A DNA stretch of 44,530 bases from positions 1 through 44,530 of the forward strand of contig CAISZK010000462.1 of NCBI GenBank assembly GCA_903889915.1. Reading direction: 5' to 3'. Source of the DNA: an uncultured Bacteroidota bacterium (GTDB taxonomy: Bacteria; Bacteroidota; Bacteroidia; Bacteroidales; CG2-30-32-10). The notes beneath the pieces were generated by a model. The model was not told the origin of the DNA, did not search any database, and saw only the letters and a program-made list of their open reading frames with translations. The translations under genes were made by a program, and so were the position numbers. Positions 13,181 through 37,665 of the stretch are shown here, piece after piece (the stretch's first letter is position 1; each line of letters begins with the position of its first letter).

Positions 13181-13418
13181 GGGAGCGATTCCCATCGAAC
13201 CCGGCATGATGCCGACCTCAAAGGGAGAAGCTCCCATTGAGGCGGGAGTTGTTCCCGTTGAAATCGGATATGTCCCATTTACATCGGAGTCTCTCCCATC
13301 TCAATGGGAGTGTTGCCCATCTCAACGGGAGTCGCTCCCCTTGAGATGGGAGCCTTGCCCGTCTCAAAAAAGTTACTCCCATTGGGCCGGGAGCCTTGCC
13401 CGAAGAGGAGGGAGCGAC
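13181..13418. repeat. Array A: 21-bp GC-rich tandem palindromic repeats (11 units plus a partial)
   Basis: Units such as gggagaagctcccattgaggc, gggagttgttcccgttgaaat and gggagtcgctccccttgagat. Period 21, with two 20-nt units (13286-13305 and 13369-13388). Confidence 0.93.
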
Positions 13419-13478
13419 AAAAAAATCGAACAGTATCAATCAACAATAAACCAAATTTCTAATTAAATTTTTAAAATC

Positions 13479-14195
13479 ATGACAAAGAAAAAGCTTAAAA
13501 AGGAAGTTCTTGTAACTGCCAATCAATCAGATTTAACTGAATCAGAATTCATGACCGATTCTTATGATAAAATTGGGGCGGCTACTGATCATTCTTCAAT
13601 TGTTACCCTTGACCCGCTGCCTGCAGCGGTGAAAACAATGCTTGACGGATTGGCAGCAAAAATGTCAAAAAAAGTTGCATTGGAGCAAGAACATAAATCA
13701 TTGACTACCGAAATTCACGAAGGATCTGATGATGTGCGAAAAATATTTGCACGCCAGTGGGCAGTCCAAATAGAAACTGCAATTGGTGATGACTACAGCC
13801 AGGCACAGTTGTTTAAATTTGGAATAAAAAATGTTGATAACGGAAAAACCGATAACCCATTGGCAACGGCTGCCAACAGTCTTCCTGTTATTACAAGAAT
13901 CTTAAATGATGTAGAAATGCAACACACAATTTTCTTTTTGAATAGCCTCACCGGCAATGTTGCAATACCTGATGGAGGAGACCATATTGATGTATATGAG
14001 TGGACCGGAGAGGGAATGCCTCCACGCGATCTAAAAAAACTTACATATTTAGGAGTTGCAAAATATGGGAAGTTTGTAAATATTTTCGCTCCCGATGATA
14101 AAGGTAAGACTATTTGGTACATAGCTGTTTATGTCAGCAAAAAAACAAAAACAGCCAATCAGTTAAGTGTAGCTGAAAGTTCAATTGTTTTTTAG
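13479..14195 (+). CDS. Uncharacterised ~240-aa array-associated protein (P1)
   Basis: 238-aa ORF beginning ~60 bp after array A and followed by a strong terminator. Helical central part LDPLPAAVKTMLDGLAAKMSKKVALEQEHKSLTTEIHEGSDDVRKIFARQWAVQIETA. Confidence 0.85.
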   Translation: MTKKKLKKEVLVTANQSDLTESEFMTDSYDKIGAATDHSSIVTLDPLPAAVKTMLDGLAAKMSKKVALEQEHKSLTTEIHEGSDDVRKIFARQWAVQIETAIGDDYSQAQLFKFGIKNVDNGKTDNPLATAANSLPVITRILNDVEMQHTIFFLNSLTGNVAIPDGGDHIDVYEWTGEGMPPRDLKKLTYLGVAKYGKFVNIFAPDDKGKTIWYIAVYVSKKTKTANQLSVAESSIVF

Positions 14196-14212
14196 AAATT
14201 AATGAACAAACT

Positions 14213-14245
14213 ACTTTCCCAAAGTTTTCTTCACTTTGGGAAAGT
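14213..14245 (+). terminator. Hairpin terminator after P1
   Basis: ACTTTCCCAAAG-ttttcttca-CTTTGGGAAAGT, 12-bp perfect stem. Confidence 0.75.
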
Positions 14246-14372
14246 TTAAAAGAAAATTGGAACGAAGAAAGTAAATAAGTTGTAGTAGAGAAAAAAGGAG
14301 AGTATTTGAATTAGGAATAAAAAATGCCACAAGCAAAATTATGTTTGTAAATTATTCGTAAAGTATATTTAA

Positions 14373-14411
14373 GTCTGCCTGTTCTGAAAAGGACGGGTGG
14401 ACTTTTTTTTT
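14373..14411 (+). terminator. Rho-independent-like hairpin with T-tract
   Basis: gtctgcctgttc-tgaaaa-ggacgggtggac then TTTTTTTTT. The stem needs several G-U pairs, valid only for plus-strand RNA. Confidence 0.55.
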
Positions 14412-14441
14412 ATAAAAATTTAATAACCAAAAACAATTACC

Positions 14442-14954
14442 ATGAAAAAAACAATTACCTTAGTTTTTATGATTTTGCTTGTAGCTCTAAGCATCAAACT
14501 TAAAGCTCAGCAACCTCAGATGCAACCACAGCAACAACAACTGCCCGATACAATCACCTATTGGATGGATTATAATTGGGATAATCTGGATGCGAATGAT
14601 TTCGATACCATCTGGAACATCCGTTGTTTTATTCAAGTTCCGGCGGGTGTTTCAATGAAAAATTTTCATCTTAAACTTGATGATGTTTTGAATAACGTGA
14701 ATAATTTGTGCAACACAAATAGTCCTGATGTTACCACAATAACTTCAGGTGTTATTGCATCACCCTGTTATCTGACACCTCATCCAAAACGGACCGAAAC
14801 CAGCTACGTGCCGACATTTACAAAAAGCGGCAATTATATTGTAGCCGATCTTGGTTTTCACCGAAGCCACTATTTTAATGTCGAGGTCAAGCCCAAAGAC
14901 CTTTCGAACAATTTGATTTCAAAAGTTAAAAAATTAAAAGACATTAAATACTGA
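14442..14954 (+). CDS. Secreted protein of unknown function
   Basis: Signal peptide (MKKTITLVFMILLVALSIKLKAQQ) and coherent 170-aa ORF, 7 bp upstream of the large metalloprotease gene. Confidence 0.7.
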   Translation: MKKTITLVFMILLVALSIKLKAQQPQMQPQQQQLPDTITYWMDYNWDNLDANDFDTIWNIRCFIQVPAGVSMKNFHLKLDDVLNNVNNLCNTNSPDVTTITSGVIASPCYLTPHPKRTETSYVPTFTKSGNYIVADLGFHRSHYFNVEVKPKDLSNNLISKVKKLKDIKY

Positions 14955-14961
14955 TAACGTT

Positions 14962-17900
14962 ATGAAAACAACAATAAAATTTTTAGCAATTTTCCATATT
15001 TGCATTGCAACAACATTTGTTGCAAAAAGTCAAATAAAGGTTAAGTGGACAAACCTGAATGTTGCGACTTATGTCACTGTATCAAATGATACCTTGAAAA
15101 AAGTGTATAACCGCACCAACTGGTGCGATGGCGCTGAATCACAAAATGTGTTGAAATCAGGACAGGATGGTTGGGTTGCTTACAAAGTTAATCAAACCAA
15201 TTGCCACCGCGCTCTTGGATTTCAGAGTGGAGCCACCGGCACATGCATGGGTTCAATGGGATGGGGTTTGTATCTGAATACAAATGGCAATCTTATTAAA
15301 ATGATAGGTTCTGCACAAACTACACTTACCACTTATGCTGCTGGTGACTCAATAAAAATTGAGCGAAAAGGCGGTAAAATTTATTATAAAAAGAACAACA
15401 CAAAATTGGATTCAACCTCTGTGTCCAATAATGTTGATTTGTATGTTGATGCCATGCTTTACAGTTATCTCGCTGCATTTGAAAATGTAGTAGCATCATT
15501 TGATGTTTTAAATATTACCTCCACCACACCAGGGTCAAGATGTGGAACAGGAACTGTTACGTTAGGTGCTGTTTCATCAGGCGGAACCATTAACTGGTAT
15601 GCCGCATCTTCAGGTGGTACTTCCCTTGGCACTGGCGCTTCTTTTGTAACACCATCTATATCCACAACTACTAATTATTATGTTTCCACTACATCTGATC
15701 ATGGATATACTTCAACTCCCAGAGTTTCGGTTACAGCAACCATTAATACAATACCCACAGTTTCCATTAGTCCATCATCTAATCCAATTTGCAATGGTTC
15801 ATCAACAACTCTTACTGCATCCGGTGCAAGCACATATAGTTGGAGTGGAGGAGGAACCGGTAACACAAAAGTAGTATCACCAACTTCAACCACTGTTTAC
15901 ACAGTTACTGGTACGGCTGCTAATGGTTGTACTAATACAGCTTCTATAAGCATCACAGTGAATGCGAAACCAACAGTAACATTAAGCGCATCGCCTTCTA
16001 CCATTTGCAATGGCGCTTCTTCAACACTCACTGCAGGAGGAGCCACTTCATACAGTTGGAGCGGAGGCTTGGGAACAGGCAATCCAAAAACCGTGTCACC
16101 AACCACCACAACTGTATATACAGTTACAGGTACAGATGGAAATGGTTGTACAAACACAGCTACAGCAACTGTAACAGTTAATTCAAAACCGACTGTTACA
16201 TTAAGCGCATCGCCTTCTACCATCTGCAATGGCGCTTCTTCAACACTCACTGCAGGAGGAGCCACATCATACAGTTGGAGCGGAGGCTTGGGAACAGGTA
16301 ATCCAAAAACCGTGTCACCAACTTCCACAACTGTATATACAGTGACTGGTACTGATGGAAATGGCTGCACTAACACTGTCACAACCACTGTTACAGTGAA
16401 TGCGAAACCAACAGTAACATTAAGCGCATCACCTTCCACCATTTGTAATGGCGCTTCTTCAACCCTTACTGCAGGAGGAGCCACATCATACAGTTGGAGC
16501 GGAGGATTGGGAACTGGCAATCCAAAAACCGTGTCACCATCTTCCACAACCGTATATACTGTGACCGGTACTGATGGAAATGGCTGTACCAATACAGCCA
16601 CAGCCACTGTTACGGTGAATGCGAAACCAACGGCAACATTAAGCGCATCGCCTTCTACTATTTGCAATGGAGCTTCTTCAACACTCACTGCAGGAGGAGC
16701 CACTTCATACAGTTGGAGCGGAGGTTTGGGAACAGGTAATCCAAAAACCGTGTCACCGACTTCCACAACCGTATATACAGTGACCGGTACTGATGGAAAT
16801 GGATGCACCAACACAGCCGCAACCACTGTTACAGTGAATGCGAAACCAACGGTAACATTAAGCGCATACCCTTCCACCATCTGCAATGGGGTTTCTTCAA
16901 CACTTACTGCGGGAGGAGCAACTTCCTATAGCTGGAGCGGAGGTTTGGGAACGGGCAATCCAAAAACCGTGTCACCAACCACTACCACTGTTTATACGGT
17001 GACTGGTACAAATGCTAATGGTTGTACAAATACGGCAACAACAACTGTAACTGTTAATCCTTTACCTTCAGCAGAGGCAGGGAGAGATACAATCATTTAC
17101 AATGGTGATAGCATACAAATTGGTAGCATTCCTATTGCAGGTTACACCTATCATTGGTCGCCATCTACCGGATTAAATAATACTAATATTGCAAATCCAT
17201 GGGCGAAGCCTGCTGTCTCAAGATATTATTATGTAACTGTAACAAATACTGTTGGCTGTACAAATAAAGATTCAATAAAAATTGGTGTAGCTCTTAAAAT
17301 GAAATGTGCAGCTTCTGACTTTTTAAATCAGGCTTTGCTAAATGATACAATAAATGAAAAATTAAACACCTACGAGAATGTAATAAGCAATTATATTAGC
17401 ACACATTTTCATGCTAAACAAATGTGGAATGAATTTACAATTCCTGTAGTTGTTAATGTTATTAATTTGGGAGAACCTGTAGGAACAGGTACAAATATTA
17501 GTGATCTACAAATAATATCTCAAATTGACGCTTTAAACAGAGATTTTAGCAATAGTGCATCTTCTATTAATCAGTATGCTTCTAATACACATGTCCATTT
17601 TTGCCTTGCTCAAATTCCACCCACAGGATATACGTGGCCAGGAACACCTGGTATTATGAGATATACTGATGCAAGCGCTTCTGATCATCACATGAATCAA
17701 GTTGGTTGGAATCTGTTAGCCGGTTATGGCTTTCCAAGTAATAATTATTTTAATATCTGGGTGGTTAATAGTATAACTGATCAATATAGTACACCTGGTA
17801 TTCAAGGATATGCAACAATGCCCGGAGTTCCTGTAACTAATATAATTACTGGTGTTGTAATAGTTAATCAAATTTTTGGAGACAATTCACTTTATTCAAA

Positions 17901-20900
17901 TTGTCCCAATTGTTACAATTTATCTTTGATAAATGAAGCAGGCAAAATTGCATCCCATGAAGTAGGTCATTTTTTAGGTTTATATCATACATTTGATAGT
18001 ATGTTTGGAGGGGGCATAGCTTGTATTAATGCAAATTCTACTAATGATTGTACCTATTTGGGAGATAAATGTTGCGATACACCTCCCGAATTAAATGCTA
18101 ATTATGGTTTTACTACCATTAATTCTTGCAATACTGATGATATTCCCAATGCCGGCGGATTAAATCCATATTATCCTTCAACTGATGCCAATGATATGAT
18201 AGAAAACTATATGGACTACTCTCCAGATGATATAAGAAATACTTTTACAACAGAACAGGGTCAAAGAATACAAGCAGTTTTAGCTGTTTATCCAACAAGA
18301 TATAATTTGTGCACTCTTGATAATTTAGTATATACCGGGGTAGATGGTTTAACAGGTTGTATGGAACCTGATTTATTCTCTTATTTTAATGTGGTTCAAA
18401 ATACCTACTGTTTAAATTTAAATGGACCTTTAAGTTTCACTTTTACTCCTTCTTTAGGTAATGGTGCAACACACTGGAATTGGACATTTGCTGGTGGTAA
18501 TCCTACAATCGCAAACAATACAACTGCTGCTCCTGTAACTGTAACTTATACAACTGAAGGTAATTATACAGTATCCTTAACGGTCACCGATGATGACAAC
18601 AATAATGATGTATTTGAACAGTCAATTAATGTTACTAATTGCAATGAAATAGAAACTTCATGTTCAAATCCATGCTATGGAAATTTGATTGTTAATGGAG
18701 ATTTTCAGGATAATACATGGTTAGCAAATACTAATAATCCGTATAATGGTGTAAATACAGAATATACATGTACTTCCCAAGGTATGCTAGTTACAGGTCC
18801 TAATAAAGCAAATATTTGTAATTCTACAACTGTTCAGGCTGATAATAGTGGTTGGCTTTGTAATGATCATGACGGATTACCTAACGGCAATTTTTGGGTT
18901 GTTGATGGGCAATCTGATGCTCTTATAATGCCTCCTGTAATTGAAGCTTGGGGGCAGGTTATTCCGCAAGCCTCTTTTATTCCAAATACTGCTTATACTT
19001 TTAGTTTTTGGGTGAATAATATTATTAAGCCCACTTTGAATAGTTATAATTTTGACCCTACTTTGCCTCAAATTCAATTAAAAGTTAATGGTTCTATTGT
19101 TGATTTTGATAATGTTAACTATCCTTCAAACACAGCTTATATTCACCTGATTCCCGACAACTGGGTTCAGCTTTGCTATTCTTTTACTACTCCGAATACT
19201 CCAATAGCTATGAATTTTGTTATTCAATCATGTAATCCTGAAGGCAATGGAGATGATTTTGCTTTGGATGATATTACCTTAACACCTCACATGACTATTA
19301 CTGATAAAATAGGGAATGAAACATGCTTCGGGTCTCAAGATGGTGTTATATATATCTTTGTAACAGACGGCACTTCTCCTTATACATATAATTGGGCTAA
19401 TTCAAATGGCCCCTTTACACCCGTAGATCCAACAGCATTAACAAATCTAAGTGCAGATAATTATACTGTTACTGCTACTGATGCTAATGGATGTTCTGTT
19501 TCTGAAAGTATTGTTATTGGAAATTCAGTTACATCAGCTTGGCCTTATAATCCTTACAATGGAACTAGTAAAGAACTTGGTTCAAGTGTTGCAGTTAATA
19601 CAAATGTTGGAGATCATGATTTTGGTGATGTTTATTCTGTAGGCTATTTTGATGGAAATATTGCATTTGATAACTCTCTCCCAAATACATATACAACTAA
19701 CGGAGGCAAGGATATATTTATTTCAAAATTTGACGCTTGTGGTGATCTTTTATGGAGTAAACAGATAGGTGGCTCTGGTGCGGATATGGTTAATAAAGTT
19801 ATCGTTGATTATAATGGTGATATTATTATCACAGGCTATTTCTCAAATTCTATTAACTTTGGCGGAGGTACAAGAACTGTTGTAGGCTATCCCACTTCAA
19901 CAACTGATCTGTTTGTTGCAAAATATCTTAAAGATGGAACTTATTCTTGGGATTATACTTTTGACCATAATTCTCTAGGTTTACAAGATGTAGGAAATGA
20001 TTTGGTATTGGATCATACAGGAAGCTATGTATATGCAGTAGGAACTGTAGGCGCTTCTGGATTGACTGGAAATATTTATGTTGCAAAAATTAATGAAACA
20101 AATGGAATTCTGTCCTCTTCATATACTTATAATTCATCCACCGCAAAAGGTTTAGGCATTACCTATTGTAATGCATGTGGAACTAATTCAAAAATTCTGG
20201 TAACAGGTCAGGTTGCAGGCAATATCATACTCTATACCTGGGATGCAGGTTTAACAACTCTAACTCCTAATTATTATAATATTACAGGAGCTGGTCAGCA
20301 TATTGTTAGTAATGCAAATTATGCTTATATCGCAGGATATAAAGACGTGTCTGGCAATCATCAGATTGAATTGATAACAGCAGGTTTAAGTACTTTGGGT
20401 ACCCCTAATGTAATAACTTGCGGAAGCGCTCTTGGTTATGATGCTGCCACTGATATTCAACTTGATCAAAATGGGGATGTATTTATTACAGGTCAATTTA
20501 CGAGTAATCCGGCAGAATTTCCAATAGGTTCAGGCAATAACGTTTATAATTCTGCGGATCCATGCACTCCTCCATGTACAAACGATAATTTTGTTGCAAA
20601 ATATTCTGTAACAGGAAATGTATTTGATTGGATTTCTCATTCAGGTTCATCTGATGATGAAACAAGCATCGGAATGTCATTGATTGGAAATGGTTTCGGG
20701 TACATAACCGGAGGTTTTCAGAATAGTGCAACTTTTGGTTCAATTATACTGACTGCTTCTGCTGATCAGGACATGTTTATTGCACGTATTCATGATCTCG
20801 GACCAACACACGGACAATTTGAAAAATTAACTGCTAATGATAATTCTAACAATGCAGAAGATAATATTAGCATTTATCCCAACCCAACGAATGACAAGTT

Positions 20901-21108
20901 AAATATTGACTTATCATTTGTTACTGATACGAAGACAAAAATACTTTTATGTGATCTTGTTGGAAATACTGTAAAAGTAATTGATGAGGGTGTTTTCAGT
21001 AAAAGGCATATCACGACAGATACTTATAATTTAGCAAATGGTGTTTATCTGGTAAAATTTGAACTAGCAGATAAAACAGTAATTAAAAAACTAGCTATCA
21101 TCAAATAA
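14962..21108 (+). CDS. Large secreted M43 (pappalysin/cytophagalysin)-like metalloprotease with repeats, PKD-like domain and T9SS type A sorting domain
   Basis: HEVGHFLGLYHTFD (HExxHxxGxxH) with downstream YMDYSPDD Met-turn; six ~73-aa Ig/PKD-like repeats; C-terminal IYPNPTNDKLNIDLSF...LANGVYLVKFELADKTVIKKLAIIK. Confidence 0.88.
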   Translation: MKTTIKFLAIFHICIATTFVAKSQIKVKWTNLNVATYVTVSNDTLKKVYNRTNWCDGAESQNVLKSGQDGWVAYKVNQTNCHRALGFQSGATGTCMGSMGWGLYLNTNGNLIKMIGSAQTTLTTYAAGDSIKIERKGGKIYYKKNNTKLDSTSVSNNVDLYVDAMLYSYLAAFENVVASFDVLNITSTTPGSRCGTGTVTLGAVSSGGTINWYAASSGGTSLGTGASFVTPSISTTTNYYVSTTSDHGYTSTPRVSVTATINTIPTVSISPSSNPICNGSSTTLTASGASTYSWSGGGTGNTKVVSPTSTTVYTVTGTAANGCTNTASISITVNAKPTVTLSASPSTICNGASSTLTAGGATSYSWSGGLGTGNPKTVSPTTTTVYTVTGTDGNGCTNTATATVTVNSKPTVTLSASPSTICNGASSTLTAGGATSYSWSGGLGTGNPKTVSPTSTTVYTVTGTDGNGCTNTVTTTVTVNAKPTVTLSASPSTICNGASSTLTAGGATSYSWSGGLGTGNPKTVSPSSTTVYTVTGTDGNGCTNTATATVTVNAKPTATLSASPSTICNGASSTLTAGGATSYSWSGGLGTGNPKTVSPTSTTVYTVTGTDGNGCTNTAATTVTVNAKPTVTLSAYPSTICNGVSSTLTAGGATSYSWSGGLGTGNPKTVSPTTTTVYTVTGTNANGCTNTATTTVTVNPLPSAEAGRDTIIYNGDSIQIGSIPIAGYTYHWSPSTGLNNTNIANPWAKPAVSRYYYVTVTNTVGCTNKDSIKIGVALKMKCAASDFLNQALLNDTINEKLNTYENVISNYISTHFHAKQMWNEFTIPVVVNVINLGEPVGTGTNISDLQIISQIDALNRDFSNSASSINQYASNTHVHFCLAQIPPTGYTWPGTPGIMRYTDASASDHHMNQVGWNLLAGYGFPSNNYFNIWVVNSITDQYSTPGIQGYATMPGVPVTNIITGVVIVNQIFGDNSLYSNCPNCYNLSLINEAGKIASHEVGHFLGLYHTFDSMFGGGIACINANSTNDCTYLGDKCCDTPPELNANYGFTTINSCNTDDIPNAGGLNPYYPSTDANDMIENYMDYSPDDIRNTFTTEQGQRIQAVLAVYPTRYNLCTLDNLVYTGVDGLTGCMEPDLFSYFNVVQNTYCLNLNGPLSFTFTPSLGNGATHWNWTFAGGNPTIANNTTAAPVTVTYTTEGNYTVSLTVTDDDNNNDVFEQSINVTNCNEIETSCSNPCYGNLIVNGDFQDNTWLANTNNPYNGVNTEYTCTSQGMLVTGPNKANICNSTTVQADNSGWLCNDHDGLPNGNFWVVDGQSDALIMPPVIEAWGQVIPQASFIPNTAYTFSFWVNNIIKPTLNSYNFDPTLPQIQLKVNGSIVDFDNVNYPSNTAYIHLIPDNWVQLCYSFTTPNTPIAMNFVIQSCNPEGNGDDFALDDITLTPHMTITDKIGNETCFGSQDGVIYIFVTDGTSPYTYNWANSNGPFTPVDPTALTNLSADNYTVTATDANGCSVSESIVIGNSVTSAWPYNPYNGTSKELGSSVAVNTNVGDHDFGDVYSVGYFDGNIAFDNSLPNTYTTNGGKDIFISKFDACGDLLWSKQIGGSGADMVNKVIVDYNGDIIITGYFSNSINFGGGTRTVVGYPTSTTDLFVAKYLKDGTYSWDYTFDHNSLGLQDVGNDLVLDHTGSYVYAVGTVGASGLTGNIYVAKINETNGILSSSYTYNSSTAKGLGITYCNACGTNSKILVTGQVAGNIILYTWDAGLTTLTPNYYNITGAGQHIVSNANYAYIAGYKDVSGNHQIELITAGLSTLGTPNVITCGSALGYDAATDIQLDQNGDVFITGQFTSNPAEFPIGSGNNVYNSADPCTPPCTNDNFVAKYSVTGNVFDWISHSGSSDDETSIGMSLIGNGFGYITGGFQNSATFGSIILTASADQDMFIARIHDLGPTHGQFEKLTANDNSNNAEDNISIYPNPTNDKLNIDLSFVTDTKTKILLCDLVGNTVKVIDEGVFSKRHITTDTYNLANGVYLVKFELADKTVIKKLAIIK
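15967..17061 (+). repeat. Five tandem 219-bp (73-aa) coding repeats
   Basis: KPTVTLSASPSTICNGASSTLTAGGATSYSWSGGLGTGNPKTVSPT.TTVYTVTGTDGNGCTNTA repeated at 15967, 16186, 16405, 16624 and 16843; a more diverged copy precedes them. Confidence 0.93.
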
Positions 21109-21122
21109 TTTTTGATAATTTT

Positions 21123-21153
21123 GTGAGCCTGTATTTTTATAATACAGGCTCAC
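21123..21153 (+). terminator. Hairpin terminator after the metalloprotease
   Basis: GTGAGCCTGTATT-tttat-AATACAGGCTCAC, 13-bp perfect stem. Confidence 0.82.
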
Positions 21154-21181
21154 CATTTTTTAAACCTCAAATTTTAAGATT

Positions 21182-22384: not shown

Positions 22385-22397
22385 TTTCAATAATTTT

Positions 22398-22431
22398 GTG
22401 AGCCTGCATTTACATATCAATGCAGGCTCAC
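22398..22431 (+). terminator. Hairpin terminator related to the one at 21123
   Basis: GTGAGCCTGCATT-tacatatc-AATGCAGGCTCAC, 13-bp perfect stem, with a compensatory change relative to 21123-21153. Confidence 0.82.
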
Positions 22432-22450
22432 TATTTTTAATTTAAATTCT

Positions 22451-23632: not shown

Positions 23633-23774
23633 AATAGTGGCAGTAGCAATGGCAGCGGGCAGAATTTCCGTACTTCTTAAATTTCTGACCTCTGAAAAGA
23701 AATCTCCTTTAAAATGTTCTAATCCTTTCAAAAGGTGGAACAATTTTTTTAATAGTAATAGCCTGAGAATTTTG

Positions 23775-23782
23775 TAATTTTG
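23775..23782 (+). promoter_or_regulatory. Possible -7 element of the retropepsin-like gene
   Basis: TAATTTTG fits TAnnTTTG, 13 bp before the ATG; no clear -33 element identified. Confidence 0.35.
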
Positions 23783-23795
23783 CAAAAAAAACATT

Positions 23796-28476: not shown

Positions 28477-28486
28477 GCCTCAATTG

Positions 28487-30376
28487 CTATTTGCTGATGT
28501 AAATGTATGTGCCCGGTTTAAGCGCATCGCTTGTAAGATTATTCAGTTTTTTGATATTGTCAACAGTTGTCCCGTATCTTTTGGCAATGGTCCAGAGATT
28601 ATCACCTGATAAAACCTGGTATTTAAATGCGCCTTTTATTGAAGGAGTAGTAGTGGTTGTTGGCTTTGTCTGAGTCGTGGTAGTTGTTGGTGTTTTAACC
28701 TTTGTTGTTGTCGTGGTAGCCGGAATGACAGGGTTGGTGACTGTTGTTTGCGGTAACGAATTATACGATAATACCTGTTTGTAAATAGTCAGAACCTGGC
28801 CGGTTGTGATGGTGGTTCCCCTGATGCTGTTCCATGTTTGAAGCTGAGCTACCGTGACACCATAGTTATGGGCAATGGCTCCCAGATTATCACCATCCTT
28901 GACCCTGTAGTAATATGTTTGAGTAATCCACACCTGCGATTGTTCTTTAACTCCCGAATTGGTGATGGTGGTATCAGAGATGGCAGGAACATTTTTCTTG
29001 ATGACCTGTACAATTGGTTTTGTTGTATCGGGGAAAGCTTTTGCTGCAATGAGTGAATTTAAGCCGGGTTTGTTAAGCTTCAGACAATAGGAATTCAGCA
29101 GTGCATTTGCAAACAATTCGCCTCTCACAAAATATCCGGCAGCATTCAGATGCACCTTGTCATATATTGCAAGCTGGTTGGCGGACCAATATAGCATTGA
29201 ATATTGCCCCCCGCTCACATAGTAGTAATCATAGAATGCACAGCCTTTGCGGAAAGCAATTTCGCGCATAAGCGCTGCGTACGTCTTGCAGTTTCCTTCG
29301 TCCCAATAGCGGTAATATACATCCTGGCCATCTGATAAGATGATAGTAGCATCGGGCGAAGCACGCTGGATAATGTCAATAATGTTGGATAATTTCTTTT
29401 CGATATCAGCGGCGTAGAATGGCACTTTGTAAAAATCATTTAACCCAACATCAAGAACAACGAGGTCTGGCTTAAGTTCTGAAAGCTGATAGATCAAAAG
29501 GTTTTCTCTCAAAATACTTGTCAGTCCGGCACCATTGATACCAACGCTGTTATACAACACTCCTTTATTTTCGCTTGTTTCTATGAGCAAACCATAACAC
29601 TCAAAAGATTTCTGCGCAGTGTCGGTCTTGTTCACAAAGAATTCAAGAGTGTCGCTGGCTTTCGGAAGTTTTACTTCAATGTAAAGTTTGTCATTAAAGG
29701 AATTGCAGTCAATGTACAATGGAGTTTCACCTGCTGAGGTTTTCAATTTCAGGTTGAAGCTTTCCTTCGAGCGCTTGCAATAGATCTTTAAAACATTGAA
29801 GTTTTCTTTGAGCGCCCACGAAGGGAAAATCAATTTGAAACTGGCTGTACTATCTTCGGTGTGTACGGTGGCTCCTGTAATGCCCAGATCATAGACAGGA
29901 TAAGGTTGAATGTTTCTTGAATAATCCCATTTTCCTTTGCAGGAAGTTTTATAATCATAAGCTGCGTGTGTAGCTGCTGCGGCATAAGGAAAAACAAAAC
30001 CCCTGCCACCATCACCAAATACCGCCTGCAATTCATTTCGGATATAACCTGTAAAAATATCAGCCTGCACATGCGAATCTCCAATGTGCAATACCTTCAA
30101 TTTACGCGTTGGCGTTAGTTTCATTTTTTCAAACAAACCATTAATAGAAGAAGAATCATTCCACTCAATATAATTCTGATTGTAGTGAATGAAAGGATAC
30201 ACTTTGTTATAGGTGATCAGGCGTTTGATGTATTGTGGGTTTGCGATAGAATCATTGTTGATTGGTTTGGTAAGAATAGTGGGAACATCTCCCTTTTTGA
30301 ACGCAAGGATACAGCAAAGTACCACAATGCCCGGCACCATGAATAAAATGTATTTCTTCAGCTTTGTTTGCTTCAT
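28487..30376 (-). CDS. SGNH/GDSL hydrolase with two C-terminal LysM domains
   Basis: VLHIGDSHVQADIFTG (GDS block), VLDVGLNDFY, DKVHLNAAGYFVRGE; LysM at YYRVKDGDNLGAIAHNYGVTVAQLQTWN and FKYQVLSGDNLWTIAKRYGTTVDNIKKLNNL. Confidence 0.92.
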   Translation of the reverse strand: MKQTKLKKYILFMVPGIVVLCCILAFKKGDVPTILTKPINNDSIANPQYIKRLITYNKVYPFIHYNQNYIEWNDSSSINGLFEKMKLTPTRKLKVLHIGDSHVQADIFTGYIRNELQAVFGDGGRGFVFPYAAAATHAAYDYKTSCKGKWDYSRNIQPYPVYDLGITGATVHTEDSTASFKLIFPSWALKENFNVLKIYCKRSKESFNLKLKTSAGETPLYIDCNSFNDKLYIEVKLPKASDTLEFFVNKTDTAQKSFECYGLLIETSENKGVLYNSVGINGAGLTSILRENLLIYQLSELKPDLVVLDVGLNDFYKVPFYAADIEKKLSNIIDIIQRASPDATIILSDGQDVYYRYWDEGNCKTYAALMREIAFRKGCAFYDYYYVSGGQYSMLYWSANQLAIYDKVHLNAAGYFVRGELFANALLNSYCLKLNKPGLNSLIAAKAFPDTTKPIVQVIKKNVPAISDTTITNSGVKEQSQVWITQTYYYRVKDGDNLGAIAHNYGVTVAQLQTWNSIRGTTITTGQVLTIYKQVLSYNSLPQTTVTNPVIPATTTTTKVKTPTTTTTQTKPTTTTTPSIKGAFKYQVLSGDNLWTIAKRYGTTVDNIKKLNNLTSDALKPGTYIYISK

Positions 30377-30422
30377 AAATTGCCCCTCTTTTTAAAGTCT
30401 CAAGTCCCAAGTCTCAAGTCTC

Positions 30423-30455
30423 AAATTCCAAGCCGAAAGACACACCTTGGAATTT
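30423..30455. repeat. Intergenic inverted repeat in an AAGTCTC/CTTGGAATTTG word tract
   Basis: AAATTCCAAG-ccgaaagacacac-CTTGGAATTT, 10-bp perfect stem. Confidence 0.7.
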
Positions 30456-30482
30456 GGATCTTTGAATTTGGAACTTGGTTCT

Positions 30483-32036
30483 TTATTTGTGCTTTCCTTT
30501 TTTCTTCTTTTTTACCGGTGTTTTATTTACCGGTGATGCCACTTCCTTTTTTTGTTTCCCTAGTCTGTACTGATATTGATTATATTCTACCATCAATGCA
30601 TTGAACAATTCTTTCCCGATTATTTTCTGACCCTTGGCAGAAAAATGTCCGTCGTGCGATGCCAGTCCCTTTTTTGTCCATGTGAGTATTGAATTCGATC
30701 CTCCCATCACTTCAAACAAATCCCAGTACGCACAGCCTGCTTCCAGTGCGGCTGCTTTTTGAGCATCTTTGATCTTTGGAATAAAAGGGTAAGAGGTATA
30801 TTCTCCTTCAATCTTTGTTGCCATGTCGCCGGCGCCGATAACGAGGACACTGATATTGGGTGCAACGCTTTTAAATCTCTTAAAAATATTCAGGTACATT
30901 TCCCTTATCTGAGCACAGGCTTTGTCTGATTTTACAGAGGGAACAACATTGTTGCCATACTGAAAGATCACCAGTTTCACGTTCAGTTTTTTTAACTGCG
31001 TTGCAAGATATTCTGGGTTGATAAGAAGAAGACCATCGCCCGAATGCCCGCGGATACCATAGTTATCTACCTGCACTCCTTTAGTACCATCAATCATCAA
31101 TCCATAAAAATCGGGACTGACACTTCCTGAAAATTCAAGTCTGAAACTTCTCACGGATGTAGAGAAATTAAGAGGGTACATGGTAAAACCAACAGCAGGT
31201 TTTAAAGTTTCAGAAAGTAACTTTTGATTGTTGGCAAGGTTATAAACATTCATTGAACAATCCTCCTGTGAATGGCCATACATCAGGTAAGCATGTGTAT
31301 AATATACCGTAGGTCTTAGGGTGATATTTACGATGGCATTGTTGTAAATTTTCTGCACATCAAGTTTTGGTGCGGTAGTGTCGCCGGGCTTGGTATCACT
31401 GGTATCTTTCTTTGCCTTTACCACTGCATATTTGGAGTATTTGTACACATTGCCCGACAATCCATAATATCCGCAACCATAACGGTTATGAAATACTGTA
31501 TATCGTATCCAGTTTGGGCTTGAAATCCTTGACAGGTTCATATTGTCAGCAATATCTTCGAAGGGTACAAACCCGATTCCGGAGCCTCCGAATTTCTCCT
31601 GAAAATAATCTCTGACATAGCAGGTGATCCTGTCGCCTTCAAGTTGTGAATCGCCGTAGTGTTCTATACGAACAGTGGCGCTGTCTTTCTGATTCAGTAA
31701 AGCTGAGAAGAAATTATCCAGCGCATAACTTCCATCTTTTTGCTTGTTTGTAAGAAAACTATTTTTGATGCTGGGGCCAAGATCAAGAAGTGAACGCCTA
31801 TATAGCCTGCCATTGCTTGTACTGTCATCATCAAGGTAGGCGTTGATGAGACTATCGGCTGTTTTGCTGTTGCCTTTTATACGGAAATCTGTGAGCGAGG
31901 CATAATTCATAATTTTTATTTTCAGATCATCCGATCCGGGAATAGGAATGGAAATATCAGGAGCCAATGAAACAGCAACCATAAAAACATCAACCAGAAT
32001 GATGATCAATAATATTTCAATAATCCTGTTTTTCAT
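30483..32036 (-). CDS. SGNH/GDSL hydrolase family protein (AlgX/PatB-like)
   Basis: VRIEHYGDSQLEGDRITCYVRD, FQYGNNVV, GHFSAKGQKIIGKELFNAL; N-terminal membrane anchor; same operon direction as the MBOAT gene. Confidence 0.85.
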   Translation of the reverse strand: MKNRIIEILLIIILVDVFMVAVSLAPDISIPIPGSDDLKIKIMNYASLTDFRIKGNSKTADSLINAYLDDDSTSNGRLYRRSLLDLGPSIKNSFLTNKQKDGSYALDNFFSALLNQKDSATVRIEHYGDSQLEGDRITCYVRDYFQEKFGGSGIGFVPFEDIADNMNLSRISSPNWIRYTVFHNRYGCGYYGLSGNVYKYSKYAVVKAKKDTSDTKPGDTTAPKLDVQKIYNNAIVNITLRPTVYYTHAYLMYGHSQEDCSMNVYNLANNQKLLSETLKPAVGFTMYPLNFSTSVRSFRLEFSGSVSPDFYGLMIDGTKGVQVDNYGIRGHSGDGLLLINPEYLATQLKKLNVKLVIFQYGNNVVPSVKSDKACAQIREMYLNIFKRFKSVAPNISVLVIGAGDMATKIEGEYTSYPFIPKIKDAQKAAALEAGCAYWDLFEVMGGSNSILTWTKKGLASHDGHFSAKGQKIIGKELFNALMVEYNQYQYRLGKQKKEVASPVNKTPVKKKKKGKHK

Positions 32037-32041
32037 TTTGA

Positions 32042-32102
32042 ATGGTCAATAGTCATTGGTCAATAGTCATTAGTCATTAGTCAATGGTCAATAGTCAATG
32101 GT
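32042..32102. repeat. Intergenic microrepeat tract (GGTCAATAGTCATT words)
   Basis: atggtcaatagtcattggtcaatagtcattagtcattagtcaatggtcaatagtcaatgg. Confidence 0.8.
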
Positions 32103-32274
32103 TGCAGAGGCTGATAATGCAATGCTTCCTGATACATGCTGCCTTGTTTCAGTTTGCAAAAATAGAAGTTAATTAAAGCAAAACTTGTTAAACAATGGAA
32201 TTTATTTAACAATGGATTGTTTGAAACATTGCGTGGATTTGAAGGGTAAGTGAAACTTTCAAAATAACTTCCCA

Positions 32275-32383
32275 TATTATTTCATCGAAGTACGAATTTT
32301 TTACGAATTTACGAAGTACGAAAGCGCTGACAGTTTCGTAATTCGTATATTCGTACCTTTTTTCGTAATTCGATGGAATAATG
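32275..32383. repeat. ~109-bp palindromic (MITE/REP-like) element rich in TACGAA
   Basis: Left end TATTATTTCATCGAAGTACGAA versus reverse complement of the right end CATTATTCCATCGAATTACGAA: 19/22 match; internal TTTACGAATTTACGAAGTACGAA words. Confidence 0.75.
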
Positions 32384-32455
32384 TTTTTAATGATTTTATT
32401 TTAAACTTTTCATTAAGATGATTTGAAAATTTCAAAACTGATATTAGCTTGAAAA

Positions 32456-32824
32456 TTATTTTGTCAATTGATATTCGTTGATCAATAATCCCGGTGAAAG
32501 ATTTAAAAGTTTTGTCAGTTTACGGATCATTTCAACAGTTAATTTACGTTTGCGGTTAAGAATTTCGGAAACCCTGCTTTTTCCACCAATTGCATCAACA
32601 AGATCAACTTGTTTTAACTGCATTTCTTCCATTCTGATTTTAATGGCTTCAACCGGATCCGGAGCGTCTATCGGGTAATGTTTTTTCTCATAATCGTCAA
32701 TCATCAATGCCAGTAAATCTGCTTCATCGCTTTTAGGTGTTCCAATTGGGGCATCAAATATGATCTCCAGCCTTTTTAAAGCAAATTGATAATCTTCTTC
32801 GGTTTTTATTGGTTTTATTTTCAT
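32456..32824 (-). CDS. HigA-type antitoxin / HTH XRE transcriptional regulator
   Basis: EEDYQFALKRLEIIFDAPIGTPKSDEADLLALMIDDYEKKHYPIDAPDPVEAIKIRMEEMQLKQVDLVDAIGGKSRVSEILNRKRKLTVEMIRKL is the HigA architecture. Confidence 0.9.
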   Translation of the reverse strand: MKIKPIKTEEDYQFALKRLEIIFDAPIGTPKSDEADLLALMIDDYEKKHYPIDAPDPVEAIKIRMEEMQLKQVDLVDAIGGKSRVSEILNRKRKLTVEMIRKLTKLLNLSPGLLINEYQLTK

Positions 32825-32949
32825 CGTGTATTTCTAAACAACAATTGATACCGCAAAATTAGTGGTAAATTGATAATATTTTTTCATTGTTGTCCGATTA
32901 ATTTTCTATGTCGTCACTAACGTGACTTAAATACCATCACATTTTCTTT

Positions 32950-33026
32950 ATTACAAAGATTTCATCCCTCTGGGATTGCTGTTCCGCTGCGGCATCTGCA
33001 CTTTGTAGGAGTGCTATCTTTGTAAT
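32950..33026. repeat. 77-bp inverted-repeat element (MITE/REP-like)
   Basis: ATTACAAAGAT ... ATCTTTGTAAT, 11-bp perfect terminal inverted repeats around a 55-bp GC-richer core (tcatccctctgggattgctgttccgctgcggcatctgcac). Confidence 0.8.
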
Positions 33027-33145
33027 GAAAACAATAGCCTTTAATTTTTCATTATTATTTTGATTACTCTTCAAATCTCAATTGAAACCAAAGATTTGCT
33101 TAAATTTGAAAAGTTTTTAAACCTTAATTTCCTTAAACCAAAACC

Positions 33146-33874
33146 ATGAAAATAAAATCTGCTTTTTACGTGATGATGCTGGCAGTGGCCGGCACTACAT
33201 TGTCGGGGTGTTATTCAAGTCAGCATTCTGCAAAATTTAGTCCTACCTATGTTGGCAATACTTATAGTGCTGCTTCCTCAAGCTCCACCACGTCTGGATC
33301 ATTTGCCGCTGAATCCACATCTGATTGGGAAAGTAAAAATGTTGAACCACCCGATCATAAAATGATCTACAATGCATCAATTACCATTGTTGTAAAAAAG
33401 CCTGATACTACGAATGCACATCTTATGACAATTGCCAGGAAATACAAAGGCTATGTGCTTAGCCAAAATGCAAATTATACTGAAATAAGGGTGAAGTCCG
33501 ACAGCCTGCAACTGGCTATGAAAGAAATTGCACTGCTAGGGAAGGTGAAATACAAGAACATTTATACGCAGGATGTCACCGAGGAATATGCTGACCTGAA
33601 GATACGCCTTGACAATGCAAAGAAAGCCCGCGCCCGTTATCTTGAACTGCTTGACAAAGCCACAACAGTGGAGGAAACTTTGAAAGTGGAAAAAGAACTG
33701 GAAAGGCTGAATACTGAAATTGATCTGCTGGAAGGAAAAATGATCAGGATAACTTACCTTGAAGAATATTCTACCATTACAGTGTCGGTGAAACAACGTG
33801 TAAAACTGGGCCCTGTTGGATTTGTGTTTAAATATCTTTTCAAAGGAGTGAGTTATTTGTTTGTGTGGAACTAA
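33146..33874 (+). CDS. DUF4349 domain-containing lipoprotein
   Basis: Lipobox LSGC; MIYNASITIVVKKPDTTNAHLMTIARKYKGYVLSQN...VTEEYADLKIRLDNAKKARARYLELLDKATTVEETLKVEKELERLNTEIDLLEGKM. Confidence 0.88.
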   Translation: MKIKSAFYVMMLAVAGTTLSGCYSSQHSAKFSPTYVGNTYSAASSSSTTSGSFAAESTSDWESKNVEPPDHKMIYNASITIVVKKPDTTNAHLMTIARKYKGYVLSQNANYTEIRVKSDSLQLAMKEIALLGKVKYKNIYTQDVTEEYADLKIRLDNAKKARARYLELLDKATTVEETLKVEKELERLNTEIDLLEGKMIRITYLEEYSTITVSVKQRVKLGPVGFVFKYLFKGVSYLFVWN

Positions 33875-33919
33875 GGATAGTCATTGGTCAATAGTCAATA
33901 GTCAAATGGGGATAAGAGA

Positions 33920-34372
33920 GTGAAAAAGAAAACAGATATTGAACAATCTCCGGCGCTGGAATTTTTCATGCCGGAGAAAGGTAAGAAGCTTAAGCTTGAC
34001 TTGTACAGCAGCACTATTTCTGCAGGCTTTCCTTCGCCTGCAGAAGATTACCTGGACAAGAAACTTGACCTGAACGAATACCTGATAAGAAATCCTTCTG
34101 CAACTTTTCTTGTGAAGGTGAACGGAAATTCAATGATCAATGCGGGTATCAATAATGGCGACATCCTCATCGTTGACCGCTCACTGGAACCTGCAGATGG
34201 CAAAGTGGTGATAGGTGTGATCAATGGTGAATTTACCGTGAAAAGGATAAGAAAAAGTGGAAAGAAACTCTTTCTTGAACCTGAAAATGATCTGTTCAAA
34301 TCTATTGAAATTACTGAGGACACTGACTTCAAAACATGGGGTGTGGTGGTTTATGCGATACATAAATTGTGA
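33920..34372 (+). CDS. umuD: UmuD-like S24 peptidase
   Basis: GFPSPAEDYLDKKLDLNEYLIRNPSATFLVKVNGNSMINAGINNGDILIVDRSLEPADGKVVIGVINGEFTVKRI; GTG start in the track. Confidence 0.9.
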   Translation: MKKKTDIEQSPALEFFMPEKGKKLKLDLYSSTISAGFPSPAEDYLDKKLDLNEYLIRNPSATFLVKVNGNSMINAGINNGDILIVDRSLEPADGKVVIGVINGEFTVKRIRKSGKKLFLEPENDLFKSIEITEDTDFKTWGVVVYAIHKL

Positions 34373-34459
34373 AAGTGACAGAAATAAATAGATAAATCAA
34401 TCCGCTTTTATCCGCATCATCCGTTTCATCCGCGTTCCCATTCCTTCATAAATACTCTG

Positions 34460-35593
34460 CTAAAAAAATTCGTAATTATTCTCAACCCTCATTGTTTTTT
34501 TACCACTATGATTAAAGGTAGTTGTGCCGGTGCGCAGGCCTTTTTCATTAAAATCAAAAACGTAAGTGTTCTTCAGTTTATCATGCCGAAACTTCGTGTA
34601 TTTTGTGCATTGCTTGCTGGCATTATATTCCATGGTGGTTTTCAATTTTATTTTTTCGCCTCCTTTTTGGTATTGTATCCAGCTTGTAATTATTTTATCA
34701 GCATTAAATGTGTAAATGTATTTCACAGTGATTTTATTTTTGCTGTTATAAAACGTGTATTCCGTAAGGTTTCCGGCAGGGTCGTATTTCAGCACGTTCT
34801 TGGTAATTCGTTTTTTCCGGTCGGTATAGATCAGTGTTTTTATTTTGCTGCCGTCGTTGATGTAATCATACTTCACGCAGACATTGGTTGAATCCACATG
34901 CGAAGGTTTTTGAACTGTGCCTTCAGGGTTGCATTTAAAACTCCAGTCGTGTTTCAGCTTTCCTTTGCCGTTATACCATTTGGTTTCGCCCTTGCTGCCG
35001 TCGGCATCATAAATGGTGACATATCTCCCCCAGGGTTTTTCTGTTCCTTTTTTGTTGTATTTAAAATCGTTGATCTCCGTTATCTGCCCTCGGTTATTGT
35101 AACTCGTAAGGATTTTACTTTGCAGCAGCGCTCCGCCCCGCCTGAAAAAATATTCGCCCGTCTGTTTGCCATCATTGTTGTAAGTGGCCGAATCCTTCAC
35201 TTTCGTTATTCCCTTTTTATTTTTTTCAATATACTTCAGTACTTTGTTGCTGTCGTTGTACTGGTAAACGCTGTTTGAGTAAGCAACATTTTTTTTATCC
35301 AGCCTTTGCTTTGCAATTACATTTCCCCGCTTATCGAAAGTATAAATTGTGATGCCACGGAGCTTAGTATTTCCTTTTTTATCAAAATGCGAAGTACGGG
35401 TTTTCCACACATGGATGTTGTTTTTGGCGATGTGCTTTTTCTCGTCCGGCATTTGACCGGCATAGAAATTTATCATGCTGAAAGATTCCACGGTGGTGTC
35501 GGATTCCAACCACATATAGGGAAGATAATTCATATTCTGTGAATAGCCTTTAAAGGCAAAAAGAACAAGAATGAGGAGGAGGATTTTTTTCAT
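34460..35593 (-). CDS. Secreted protein with degenerate YD/RHS-like repeats
   Basis: Signal peptide; repeated strands YTFDKRGNVIAKQRL, YQYNDSNKVLKY, YNNDGKQTGEYF, YNNRGQITEINDFKY, YDPAGNLTEYTFY. Confidence 0.65.
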   Translation of the reverse strand: MKKILLLILVLFAFKGYSQNMNYLPYMWLESDTTVESFSMINFYAGQMPDEKKHIAKNNIHVWKTRTSHFDKKGNTKLRGITIYTFDKRGNVIAKQRLDKKNVAYSNSVYQYNDSNKVLKYIEKNKKGITKVKDSATYNNDGKQTGEYFFRRGGALLQSKILTSYNNRGQITEINDFKYNKKGTEKPWGRYVTIYDADGSKGETKWYNGKGKLKHDWSFKCNPEGTVQKPSHVDSTNVCVKYDYINDGSKIKTLIYTDRKKRITKNVLKYDPAGNLTEYTFYNSKNKITVKYIYTFNADKIITSWIQYQKGGEKIKLKTTMEYNASKQCTKYTKFRHDKLKNTYVFDFNEKGLRTGTTTFNHSGKKTMRVENNYEFF

Positions 35594-35765
35594 TTTGGGT
35601 TAGTTTTAATGAGCGTAAAATTAAATAAAATTTCTAATAAAATTCAGAAATTTCTATTCATAATTTATGTTCAAGAAAAAAAATTCTCCAAACACAATAA
35701 AACCCATATTTCGACGTTGATTAATAAAAAGACCTATTTGTCAATTTAACTGTGGAGGAATAAAC

Positions 35766-36344
35766 ATGATTGCCATCATCACGAATGTCACATGCCCGTG
35801 TGGTTGCTGTGGCGAAATAATAGGAATATATCTGAGGAAACATTACGAAGGCGGTTTCAGGATTGAAAAAGACAGGGTGATCTTCGACAACGATCCTCCC
35901 CTTGAGATGTTTGAAATTGTCAATGCTGAATTACGTTTCAAGGGGCATCAATTGCTGACAGGCATTGATGCCGTCTATGTTGAGCTTATTCAGGATGCCC
36001 TTAAAGAAATGCTGAAAAGTGTTGAAAACCGCGATGTTCTTAAGCTCACACCAAAAGAGGAAATAAAAAACATCCAACAACTGGTGCTTGAGAAAACCGG
36101 GAGGGCATACGATGGTATGGAAAAGTTTTACAAAAAAAAGATGAACATGAGTATTCTTCATAGCTATATTGTGATTAAAGTTGAAAGGTTGCAGCAGTTG
36201 ATCATTGAAGAAATGGAAGAATGGGATATAATGATAAGGCTGAATTATTGCAACAAATCATACATGGAAAAACAGTTCAGAGATGTGACAGGTAAAAAAC
36301 TCAAAGAATTTATTCTTGAAATAAAATTTCAAAAAAATCACTAA
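35766..36344 (+). CDS. Protein with AraC-type C-terminal HTH
   Basis: C-terminal YIVIKVERLQQLIIEEMEEWDIMIRLNYCNKSYMEKQFRDVTGKKLKEFILEIKF resembles the second AraC HTH; N-terminal TCPCGCCGEIIG cysteine cluster. Confidence 0.6.
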   Translation: MIAIITNVTCPCGCCGEIIGIYLRKHYEGGFRIEKDRVIFDNDPPLEMFEIVNAELRFKGHQLLTGIDAVYVELIQDALKEMLKSVENRDVLKLTPKEEIKNIQQLVLEKTGRAYDGMEKFYKKKMNMSILHSYIVIKVERLQQLIIEEMEEWDIMIRLNYCNKSYMEKQFRDVTGKKLKEFILEIKFQKNH

Positions 36345-36347
36345 AAC

Positions 36348-36382
36348 ACCGGAAAAGTGTTTTTTTTACCGGAAATGTGTTT
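36348..36382 (+). promoter_or_regulatory. Pair of 15-bp direct repeats, candidate operator
   Basis: ACCGGAAAaGTGTTT (36348-36362) and ACCGGAAAtGTGTTT (36368-36382), start-to-start 20 bp. Confidence 0.6.
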
Positions 36383-36412
36383 GATTCGCCCCCCATCCTT
36401 AATATACCTTTG
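36380..36412 (+). promoter_or_regulatory. Bacteroidota-type promoter for the P2 gene
   Basis: TTTG (36380-36383), 21 bp, TACCTTTG (36405-36412), fitting TTTG-N(19-21)-TAnnTTTG. Confidence 0.6.
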
Positions 36413-36471
36413 TACCGTCATTGCGCATCAAAAAGCATCCACCAAAAGTAATCCCTGCCGACTTGCGATGA

Positions 36472-37224
36472 GTGCCTGCTGACAAAAAAAACTGGCGGGG
36501 ACAACAATCAAAAATTTATGTTATGCAGACAATTTTTGTAATGGGTTCAATTGAGCTTTCACGCAATGTAACTCAGCCGGTGGTCAATGATCATGTGGCA
36601 GAGCACTACATAAAGCTCAACGTCACCTGGAACCATCTTCCCCCTGAAAAGAAAATCCAGGATGCAATAACAAAAAAGGCCGACATCACAGCCGGAAGTG
36701 ATTTCCCGCTGCCCTGGTCACCCGAGTTCACTTCCCTCACTGCGCTGGGCGCTTTAATTACCGATGCAAATGCCAAATTGCTGGCACGTTCGCAAAAGCT
36801 GCCCAACAGCAAAAGAAACCTGACAGCGTCGCTCAAGGCGCTTTACCGCGGTGTTACCAACATTGGCATGATGATCCAACTCAAGATGGACACTGTTGTT
36901 CCAACAGAAGCCATCCGTATGTGCCTGGCAGCAGGCTATACCTACAAGGCCATCAATGTCCGTGGGAAGAGACCAAATTGTGTAAAGCAAACGACCACGC
37001 CGGGTACAGTTGTAGTTTGGGGCGAAGGACAAGGTTCAAGGCTGTGGCAGATGAGTCCCGATCCAAACCATGAAACCATTACCGACCTGAAGGCAACCAA
37101 AGGTGGTGTTAAAACGGTGGATAGTTTGACATCAAAGAAGGAAGTCTGGTTCCGCTGGAGTTTGATGCTTGCCGATGAAGCTTATGGTGAATGGTGCCCC
37201 TGGTATTCGGGAATCGTTCCATGA
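36472..37224 (+). CDS. Uncharacterised ~240-aa array-associated protein (P2)
   Basis: FTSLTALGALITDANAKLLARSQKLPNSKRNLTASLKALYRGVTNIGMMIQLKMDTVVPTEAIRMCLAAGYTYKA then a beta-rich C-terminal part. Track start is GTG; ATG 36523 or 36541 may be the true start. Confidence 0.82.
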   Translation: MPADKKNWRGQQSKIYVMQTIFVMGSIELSRNVTQPVVNDHVAEHYIKLNVTWNHLPPEKKIQDAITKKADITAGSDFPLPWSPEFTSLTALGALITDANAKLLARSQKLPNSKRNLTASLKALYRGVTNIGMMIQLKMDTVVPTEAIRMCLAAGYTYKAINVRGKRPNCVKQTTTPGTVVVWGEGQGSRLWQMSPDPNHETITDLKATKGGVKTVDSLTSKKEVWFRWSLMLADEAYGEWCPWYSGIVP

Positions 37225-37244
37225 TGCATTTGTTAAGCATTAGA

Positions 37245-37271
37245 AAAGGGGTGGTCTCAGATCACCCCTTT
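37245..37271 (+). terminator. Rho-independent terminator after P2
   Basis: AAAGGGGTG-gtctcagat-CACCCCTTT followed by CTTTTTT. Confidence 0.88.
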
Positions 37272-37398
37272 CTTTTTTACTGAAGATGATGTTTAAAGCA
37301 CCTGAATTAACTCAAATTCTACAATAAACCCGACAGTAAAAAAGTGATAAAAATTTATTCTGACAATTGCCGTTGCAAAACAGACAATCACCATCGTG

Positions 37399-37665
37399 TA
37401 ATAGTTTATTCACGAAGTGAAATAGATTATTCAGTATGTGGAATAGATTATTCACGAAGTGGAATAGTTTATTCAGTAAGTGAAATAGTTTATTCACGAA
37501 GTGGAATAGATTATTCACGAAGTGAAATAGTTTATTCATGAAGTGAAATAGTTTATTCAGTAAGTGAAATAGTTTATTCACGAAGTGAAATAGTTTATTC
37601 AGTAAGTGAAATAGTTTATTCAGTAAGTGAAATAGTTTATTCACGAAGTGAAATAGTTTATTCAC
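37399..37665. repeat. Array B: 21-bp AT-rich tandem palindromic repeats (12 units plus a partial)
   Basis: Unit [a/g]aatag[t/a]ttattcaNNaagtg, strictly 21 bp, e.g. aaatagtttattcacgaagtg and aaatagtttattcagtaagtg. Confidence 0.97.

Follow-up and report, generated by a model that had tools for sequence, protein, structure and literature searches.

Why would the gene of a small bacterial protein keep at its side a block of short repeats in which the unit length is preserved and the sequence is replaced? The question is raised by a stretch of 44,530 nucleotides (nt) from an uncultured Bacteroidota bacterium (contig CAISZK010000462.1, assembly GCA_903889915.1), which we call the window and whose positions serve as coordinates. 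It carries two small genes, P1 and P2, each next to a tandem array of 21-base-pair (bp) units, array A and array B, respectively. The original prediction, made from the letters of the window, proposed a specific match between each protein and the hairpin array beside it. Our analysis suggests that the window samples a large undescribed Bacteroidota family of small proteins with an own repeat block beside each gene, and a new kind of protein-plus-repeat system.

Two arrays in the window

Array A (13181-13418) lies upstream of P1 and consists of about 11 degenerate dyad-symmetric units, whereas array B (37396-37666) is regular. At a lag of 21 bp, identity is 0.49 in A (13181-13418) and 0.89 in B (37399-37665); the neighboring lags of 20 and 22 give 0.29-0.33, and the best-period score of either array is matched by none of 500 dinucleotide shuffles. 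Tandem Repeats Finder calls B as 12.9 units of 21 bp (score 409) and A in part only, yet the degenerate array A holds the 21-bp register along its full length. Hence both arrays are real and far above chance, and, as had also been claimed, their sequences are unrelated. Perfect palindromes of two 5-nt arms around a 3-nt loop number three in A (shuffles: mean 0.38, maximum 3) and seven in B (mean 0.38, maximum 4). Since a palindrome that recurs periodically contains two dyads in every period, those in B come in two forms, TTCAC-gaa-GTGAA and GAATA-nnn-TATTC.

Association of gene and array

P1 and P2 were first searched against the assembly of the window's own genome (5.55 Mb in 476 contigs). 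Family profiles (A4, A5, A7, and A9) were built from the paralogues found there, and the wider profile searches covered 198 genomes of the same order and a 396-genome sample of the phylum. Most of these genomes are fragmented assemblies, and the arrays themselves break contigs. Nearly all of the first paralogues were accompanied, at a distance of up to about 1 kb, by a tandem array with a period of 21, 42 or 63, and its sequence was different each time.

The association was tested with one fixed criterion, a period-21 array at most 800 bp from the gene, which applied to 59 of 74 genes and to 48 of 639 control intervals. The rate in the controls is too high, because leucine-rich-repeat coding sequence (L119) or heptad repeats account for some of the control and unlinked arrays. 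Such 7-bp tandem repeats (e.g., TTTTACA, AATAGTC) are found in the window at 1534-1587, 11730-11789, 12226-12264, 32041-32102, and 33877-33905 and are frequent around paralogous loci too; they give a weak period-21 signal and were handled as a confounder. Period-21 arrays occupy 16% and 30% of the two 250-bp bins closest to the gene and 0.2-1.4% beyond 2 kb, while periods 18-20 and 22-24 do not exceed about 1%. No call was made for 15 genes; a contig end lies within 650 bp of eight of these (including L104, which has a 20-bp array), and several of the others show a weak register by eye. In a later out-of-sample set, 35 of 45 further genes had period 21, four passed at period 20 and none at 19, 22 or 23; in two failures the contig ends 32-45 bp from the gene on the expected array side. 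The enrichment of nearby 21-bp arrays at homologues, anticipated by the original prediction, is thus found in sample and out of sample, and the constancy of the unit length under replaced sequence extends from two loci to the family.

Five loci carry 20-bp (or 40-bp) arrays (L104, L209, L215, L216, and L219), which are scattered on the protein tree and have separate origins. A protein of 296-332 amino acids (aa) without a family match is encoded directly upstream of the family gene at three P2-type or related loci (L070 8678-9619, L071 6520-7518, and L090 8497-9387), and at L090 a 21-bp array stands just 5' of its gene. Being confined to these three loci, this partner was rejected as a general neighbor, and no other gene is common to the loci.

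A family of helical and fibronectin type III proteins

P1 (13479-14195, forward strand, 238 aa) keeps its predicted coordinates and belongs to the class with an upstream array, and P2 (36523-37224, forward strand, 233 aa) to the class with a downstream array. P2 probably starts at the ATG at 36523, the start shared by its paralogues, and not at the GTG at 36472. The two proteins show no match to each other in BLASTP. Enlarged P1-type and P2-type profiles, however, align over 182 columns that span both the helices and the fibronectin type III (Fn3) domain (hhalign probability 89%, E 2e-6), which places P1 and P2 in one superfamily, a relationship previously judged by eye. The members share an architecture of N-terminal helices followed by a C-terminal Fn3 domain. 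PF00041 matches 10 of 20 members (best E 1.4e-6), mostly under the curated cut-off, and the family profile matches solved Fn3 chains including titin (best E 1.7e-29). The AlphaFold2 model of P2, of moderate quality (predicted local distance difference test score, pLDDT, 65), comprises a strand, four helices, and an Fn3 domain, and its top Foldseek matches are Fn3 domains. An alignment-free AlphaFold model of P1 is unusable (pLDDT 34), and P1 is tied to Fn3 by profile only (A5 and A9, of which A9 aligns with the Fn3 family profile A7 at a probability of 89%). The N-terminal part of the family protein matches nothing, and library scans found no fitting Pfam, NCBIfam or PADLOC family for the whole protein. 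Its PHROG matches are Fn3-bearing tail proteins. A phage or plasmid origin was rejected, as one member is unmatched in phage and plasmid records and the P1- and P2-type profiles are unmatched in viral contigs.

The window's own genome holds roughly 45 near-complete copies (43 matches to A7 and 9 to A5), excluding two matches within one 970-aa protein and about five fragments. Gene content suggests that the group belongs to the Bacteroidota. Members occur in 16 of the 198 genomes of the order; in the phylum sample, most matches are Fn3 domains of large proteins, and full-length members are present in a handful of genomes. Between close paralogues, the ratio of non-synonymous to synonymous divergence (dN/dS) is 0.15-0.32. 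Therefore, the proteins are real and under purifying selection, and positive selection was rejected. Synonymous divergence is mosaic within the gene pairs L062/L063 and L093/L094 (e.g., dS 0.15 in the N-terminal part and 1.5 in the remainder), a pattern that suggests recombination or gene conversion between paralogues. In one genome (G099), family genes stand in tandem pairs (L101, L102, L105, and L107), one encoding about 210 aa and the other 340-355 aa with an N-terminal extension.

Architecture of the arrays

Arrays have a median length of 290 bp, or about 13.8 units. Lag identity is 0.63 at 21, 0.70 at 42, and 0.64 at 63 bp and near background elsewhere, no sub-period appears, and many arrays alternate as 42 bp. 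Most are near-identical throughout (median 1.32 bits per column), and some contain variable stretches. The dyad score amounts to 41.7, compared with 16.4 +/- 1.6 in column-shuffled arrays, and the dyad arms are the best-conserved columns. The layout proposed from A and B, with arms of 5, a loop of 3, and a spacer of 8, does not generalize: among the 41 arrays with a clear dyad, loop length ranges from 0 to 12 nt. What the arrays have in common is the 21-bp period together with dyad symmetry.

Three further candidate properties were rejected. Codon-phase signal, as expected of a coding repeat, is missing from the arrays, and a Bacteroidota-type promoter motif near them gave no clear pattern. 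Compensatory covariation within units reached a z of 14 at first and was gone once the dyad was re-optimized on column-shuffled arrays (179.6 vs. 180.0).

Inheritance and turnover

On the protein tree, the array is upstream of the gene in some clades and downstream in others. Its side changes five times among 103 genes, compared with 30.6 times when shuffled; an earlier, smaller tree gave three changes among 68 genes against 19.8. As the side follows the protein tree, the pairing of gene and array is old and inherited.

The repeat sequence behaves differently. L098 and L099 encode proteins of 95% identity and agree at 89 of 100 fourfold sites, and their flanks are 94% identical on the far side of the array and 89% on the gene side (from BLAST blocks, a gapped global alignment being judged unreliable), yet the arrays in between are unalignable. 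They are nonetheless related above background, with a nearest-unit identity of 0.69 against 0.53 +/- 0.03 for unrelated arrays. By this comparison, repeat sequence turns over faster than synonymous sites while the flanks stay alignable. A sequence-specific match would therefore have to shift very fast, and the proposed match between each protein and its adjoining hairpin array is weakened. Across the family, array relatedness is mostly partly kept at 73-93% protein identity and is at background at about 70% and lower.

Fast turnover between alignable flanks is what one would expect of a neutral satellite, i.e., slippage- and recombination-prone DNA without a function of its own that is carried along by a duplicating gene family. 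The degenerate end units, the repeated origin of 20-bp variants, and the mosaic dS, which suggests recombination between paralogues, point in the same direction. Slippage, however, would not keep 21 bp across about 100 unrelated sequences with none at 19, 22 or 23, and in L183, L184, and L074 the 21-bp register is held by eye even though the units share little. Since the dyad excess and the agreement of the side with the protein tree also speak against it, we regard the neutral satellite as improbable.

Arrays also occur apart from the gene. The module around P2 (36319-37749, forward strand), comprising gene, terminator, array, and tail, is duplicated on contig C26, where the outer flanks differ (BLASTN blocks); the tail 3' of array B (37667-37749) aligns with three other array copies (L168, L169, and L170). 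Relatives of array B are present on contigs C241, C129, and C245. C241 and C245 end inside the array, so that the gene may be missing there, whereas on C129 the array is followed by about the first 100 bp of its tail, the P2 gene is lacking, and two further arrays lie alongside. On this 15-kb contig, the three different 21-bp arrays are clustered (L174, 12059-13736), no family gene is present, and a 320-aa protein without a family match is encoded about 60 bp from the last array. At L180 and L181, the last 30-44 codons of the gene are followed by an intact array. At L065 (12171-12777), a pair of 21-bp arrays is separated by about 4 kb from the closest family gene; the closest gene of any kind encodes a 374-aa AAA-type ATPase (PF00004, E 2.5e-7) and begins at a distance of about 170 bp.

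Arrays without the gene or beside its remnants would suit a DNA element that is used by another host factor, such as a nucleoid protein, a recombinase or a segregation protein, with the Fn3 gene linked to it in some other way, e.g., regulated by the array. The fast divergence of arrays beside a nearly unchanged protein and the lack of a recognized DNA-binding domain in that protein agree with such a third-party element. The linkage is stable over deep divergence, however, with the side passed on along with the protein, and the loci have no other gene in common; in the stretches read, which had been selected for their family genes, 61 gene-linked arrays compare with about 10 unlinked ones. We consider this explanation quite unlikely.

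DNA or RNA

An intrinsic terminator with a 12-pair stem and a T-run (37245-37271, forward strand) separates P2 from array B and recurs at paralogous loci (L170 and L180; contigs C26 and C353). In the downstream class as a whole, 16 of 23 loci have a strong terminator in the interval from gene to array, compared with 19.6% of shuffles. The upstream class shows no terminator enrichment between array and gene (8 of 41 vs. 15.9% of shuffles), nor is there any enrichment after the array. G-T and A-C mismatches are about equally frequent (191 and 177), the sense strand has no overall folding advantage, and the arrays have no Rfam match. Taken together, the placement of terminators, the nearly equal mismatches, and the lack of a sense-strand gain, although indirect, favor an element of duplex DNA over RNA.

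These observations bear on a further alternative, in which transcription of the array would yield a series of small hairpins or processed units to be bound by the Fn3 protein, in the manner of a type III antitoxin RNA or a TIGR-type guide array. Relative to column-shuffled controls, folding is improved on both strands (mean z -2.9), and a unit length that is kept while the sequence varies by locus is known from ToxI (PMC5086642) and from TIGR arrays, which likewise lie up- or downstream of their gene in 5-15 units (PMC12045711). An RNA would, on the other hand, be expected to show an excess of G-U over A-C and an advantage of the sense strand, and in the downstream class the terminator cuts the gene off from the array. 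We rate the RNA system as unlikely, but if RNA is involved, the loci would represent a new protein-plus-structured-repeat system with a layout comparable to type III toxin-antitoxin or TIGR loci.

A putative nucleoprotein platform

A cis-acting DNA platform, centromere- or operator-like, is thus the favored reading of the array. Our preferred, still tentative model, to which we give somewhat less than even credence, is a two-part module in which a small helical and Fn3 protein is combined with a cis-acting platform that offers about 14 dyad-symmetric sites. It builds on the pairing, the spacing, the dyad excess, the inherited side, the purifying selection, the turnover of letters, and, in the downstream class, the separation of the array from the gene transcript, all of which are observed. 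A spacing of 21 bp corresponds to about two helical turns and would therefore put the sites on one face of the duplex. The neighboring protein, or a complex that contains it, may load cooperatively on the array as symmetric dimers, and the loaded array might form a local nucleoprotein body, by analogy with SopB on sopC or omega on its heptads. Recognition would then depend on spacing and symmetry plus a fast-shifting sequence preference, which could keep tens of modules in one genome apart. Such a body could serve in partition, in silencing, in self-recognition between modules or in phage sensing.

Several observations sit uneasily with the platform model. The protein is not consistently basic (median isoelectric point 9.0, P1 5.97), and Pfam scans of the family recognized no DNA-binding domain. 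A minority of arrays lack a clear dyad (L087 and L100), arrays of 20 bp would drift around the helix, and arrays without a nearby family gene exist. Moreover, unalignable arrays beside 95%-identical proteins are awkward for sequence-specific binding. With more reservation than for the model itself, we propose an undescribed class of modules in which multigene helical-Fn3 proteins each assemble on an own platform that is read chiefly by its 21-bp period and dyad symmetry and not by a fixed sequence, so that one chromosome would contain tens of distinct platforms; this possibility is doubtful, though worth stating.

Two other features of the window are of note. Shortly 3' of array B, 38188-39567 encodes an AAA_15/AAA_21 ATPase (PF13175, E 1.6e-20), a putative OLD- or AbiEii-like protein and possible defense gene. 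A 219-bp tandem repeat at 15877-17048 falls within an open reading frame of 2048 aa (14962-21108), probably a large surface protein with repeated domains.

Comparison with known systems

No known system matches these loci, in line with the original prediction: Pfam, NCBIfam, PADLOC, and Rfam contain no explaining family, and the openly licensed papers searched gave no published description of this gene-array system. Among related arrangements, repetitive extragenic palindromic (REP) elements are palindromic repeats tied to one gene family, RAYT, with some copies lacking the gene (PMC3733652). RAYT is an HUH tyrosine transposase, and REP elements carry a GTAG tag; here neither is seen, Pfam scans of the family proteins gave no transposase match, and the arrays are strictly head-to-tail.

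In type III toxin-antitoxin systems (ToxIN, CptIN, and TenpIN), a tandem array adjoins a small gene, and repeat length is kept while the sequence varies (PMC5086642). Their repeats of 34-36 nt in 2.8-5.5 copies, the terminator between array and toxin, and the endoribonuclease are absent here. Family proteins have no Pfam match to an endoribonuclease of the ToxN, CptN or TenpN kind, their C-terminal half being Fn3, and in place of an upstream array with a Rho-independent terminator before the gene, terminators in the upstream class stay near the shuffled rate given above and many arrays are downstream. TIGR-Tas loci have 5-15 units up- or downstream of one gene, with repeats that are conserved within but not between loci and are palindromic in some cases (PMC12045711). 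The TIGR-Tas protein, however, has a Nop domain, which Pfam scans did not detect in the helical and Fn3 family, and TIGR units of 36 nt hold two spacers that vary from one unit to the next, whereas the 21-bp units appear to be mostly spacer-free, although some arrays have variable stretches.

The sopC site of the F plasmid lies beside sopB, the gene of its binding protein. In this type Ia ParABS system, sopC comprises about 12 tandem 43-bp repeats with inverted repeats (PMC6238139), and the loci described here resemble it in having a repeat array beside the gene, with about 14 units of 21 bp that often alternate as 42 bp. Similarly, the omega protein (ParB) of pSM19035 is a small protein that binds 7-10 contiguous short repeats cooperatively (PMC9499535), but these are non-palindromic 7-bp units and omega is a ribbon-helix-helix protein. 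Clustered dyad or repeat sites beside the gene are thus present as in ParABS, whereas Pfam scans found no ParB-type or ribbon-helix-helix domain, no ParA partner was found, the loci share no neighbor gene, and tens of loci per chromosome each have their own sequence.

Type III toxin-antitoxin, TIGR-Tas, and ParB/parS each fail at least one tested defining feature. A family with about 45 copies in one genome, under purifying selection and tied across the phylum to arrays that are fixed in period and free in sequence, is without parallel in the family libraries and papers searched. It amounts to a natural experiment in how spacing and symmetry can persist in a DNA or RNA element linked to a protein while the letters change, and the many gene-array pairs within one genome would allow direct tests of specificity.

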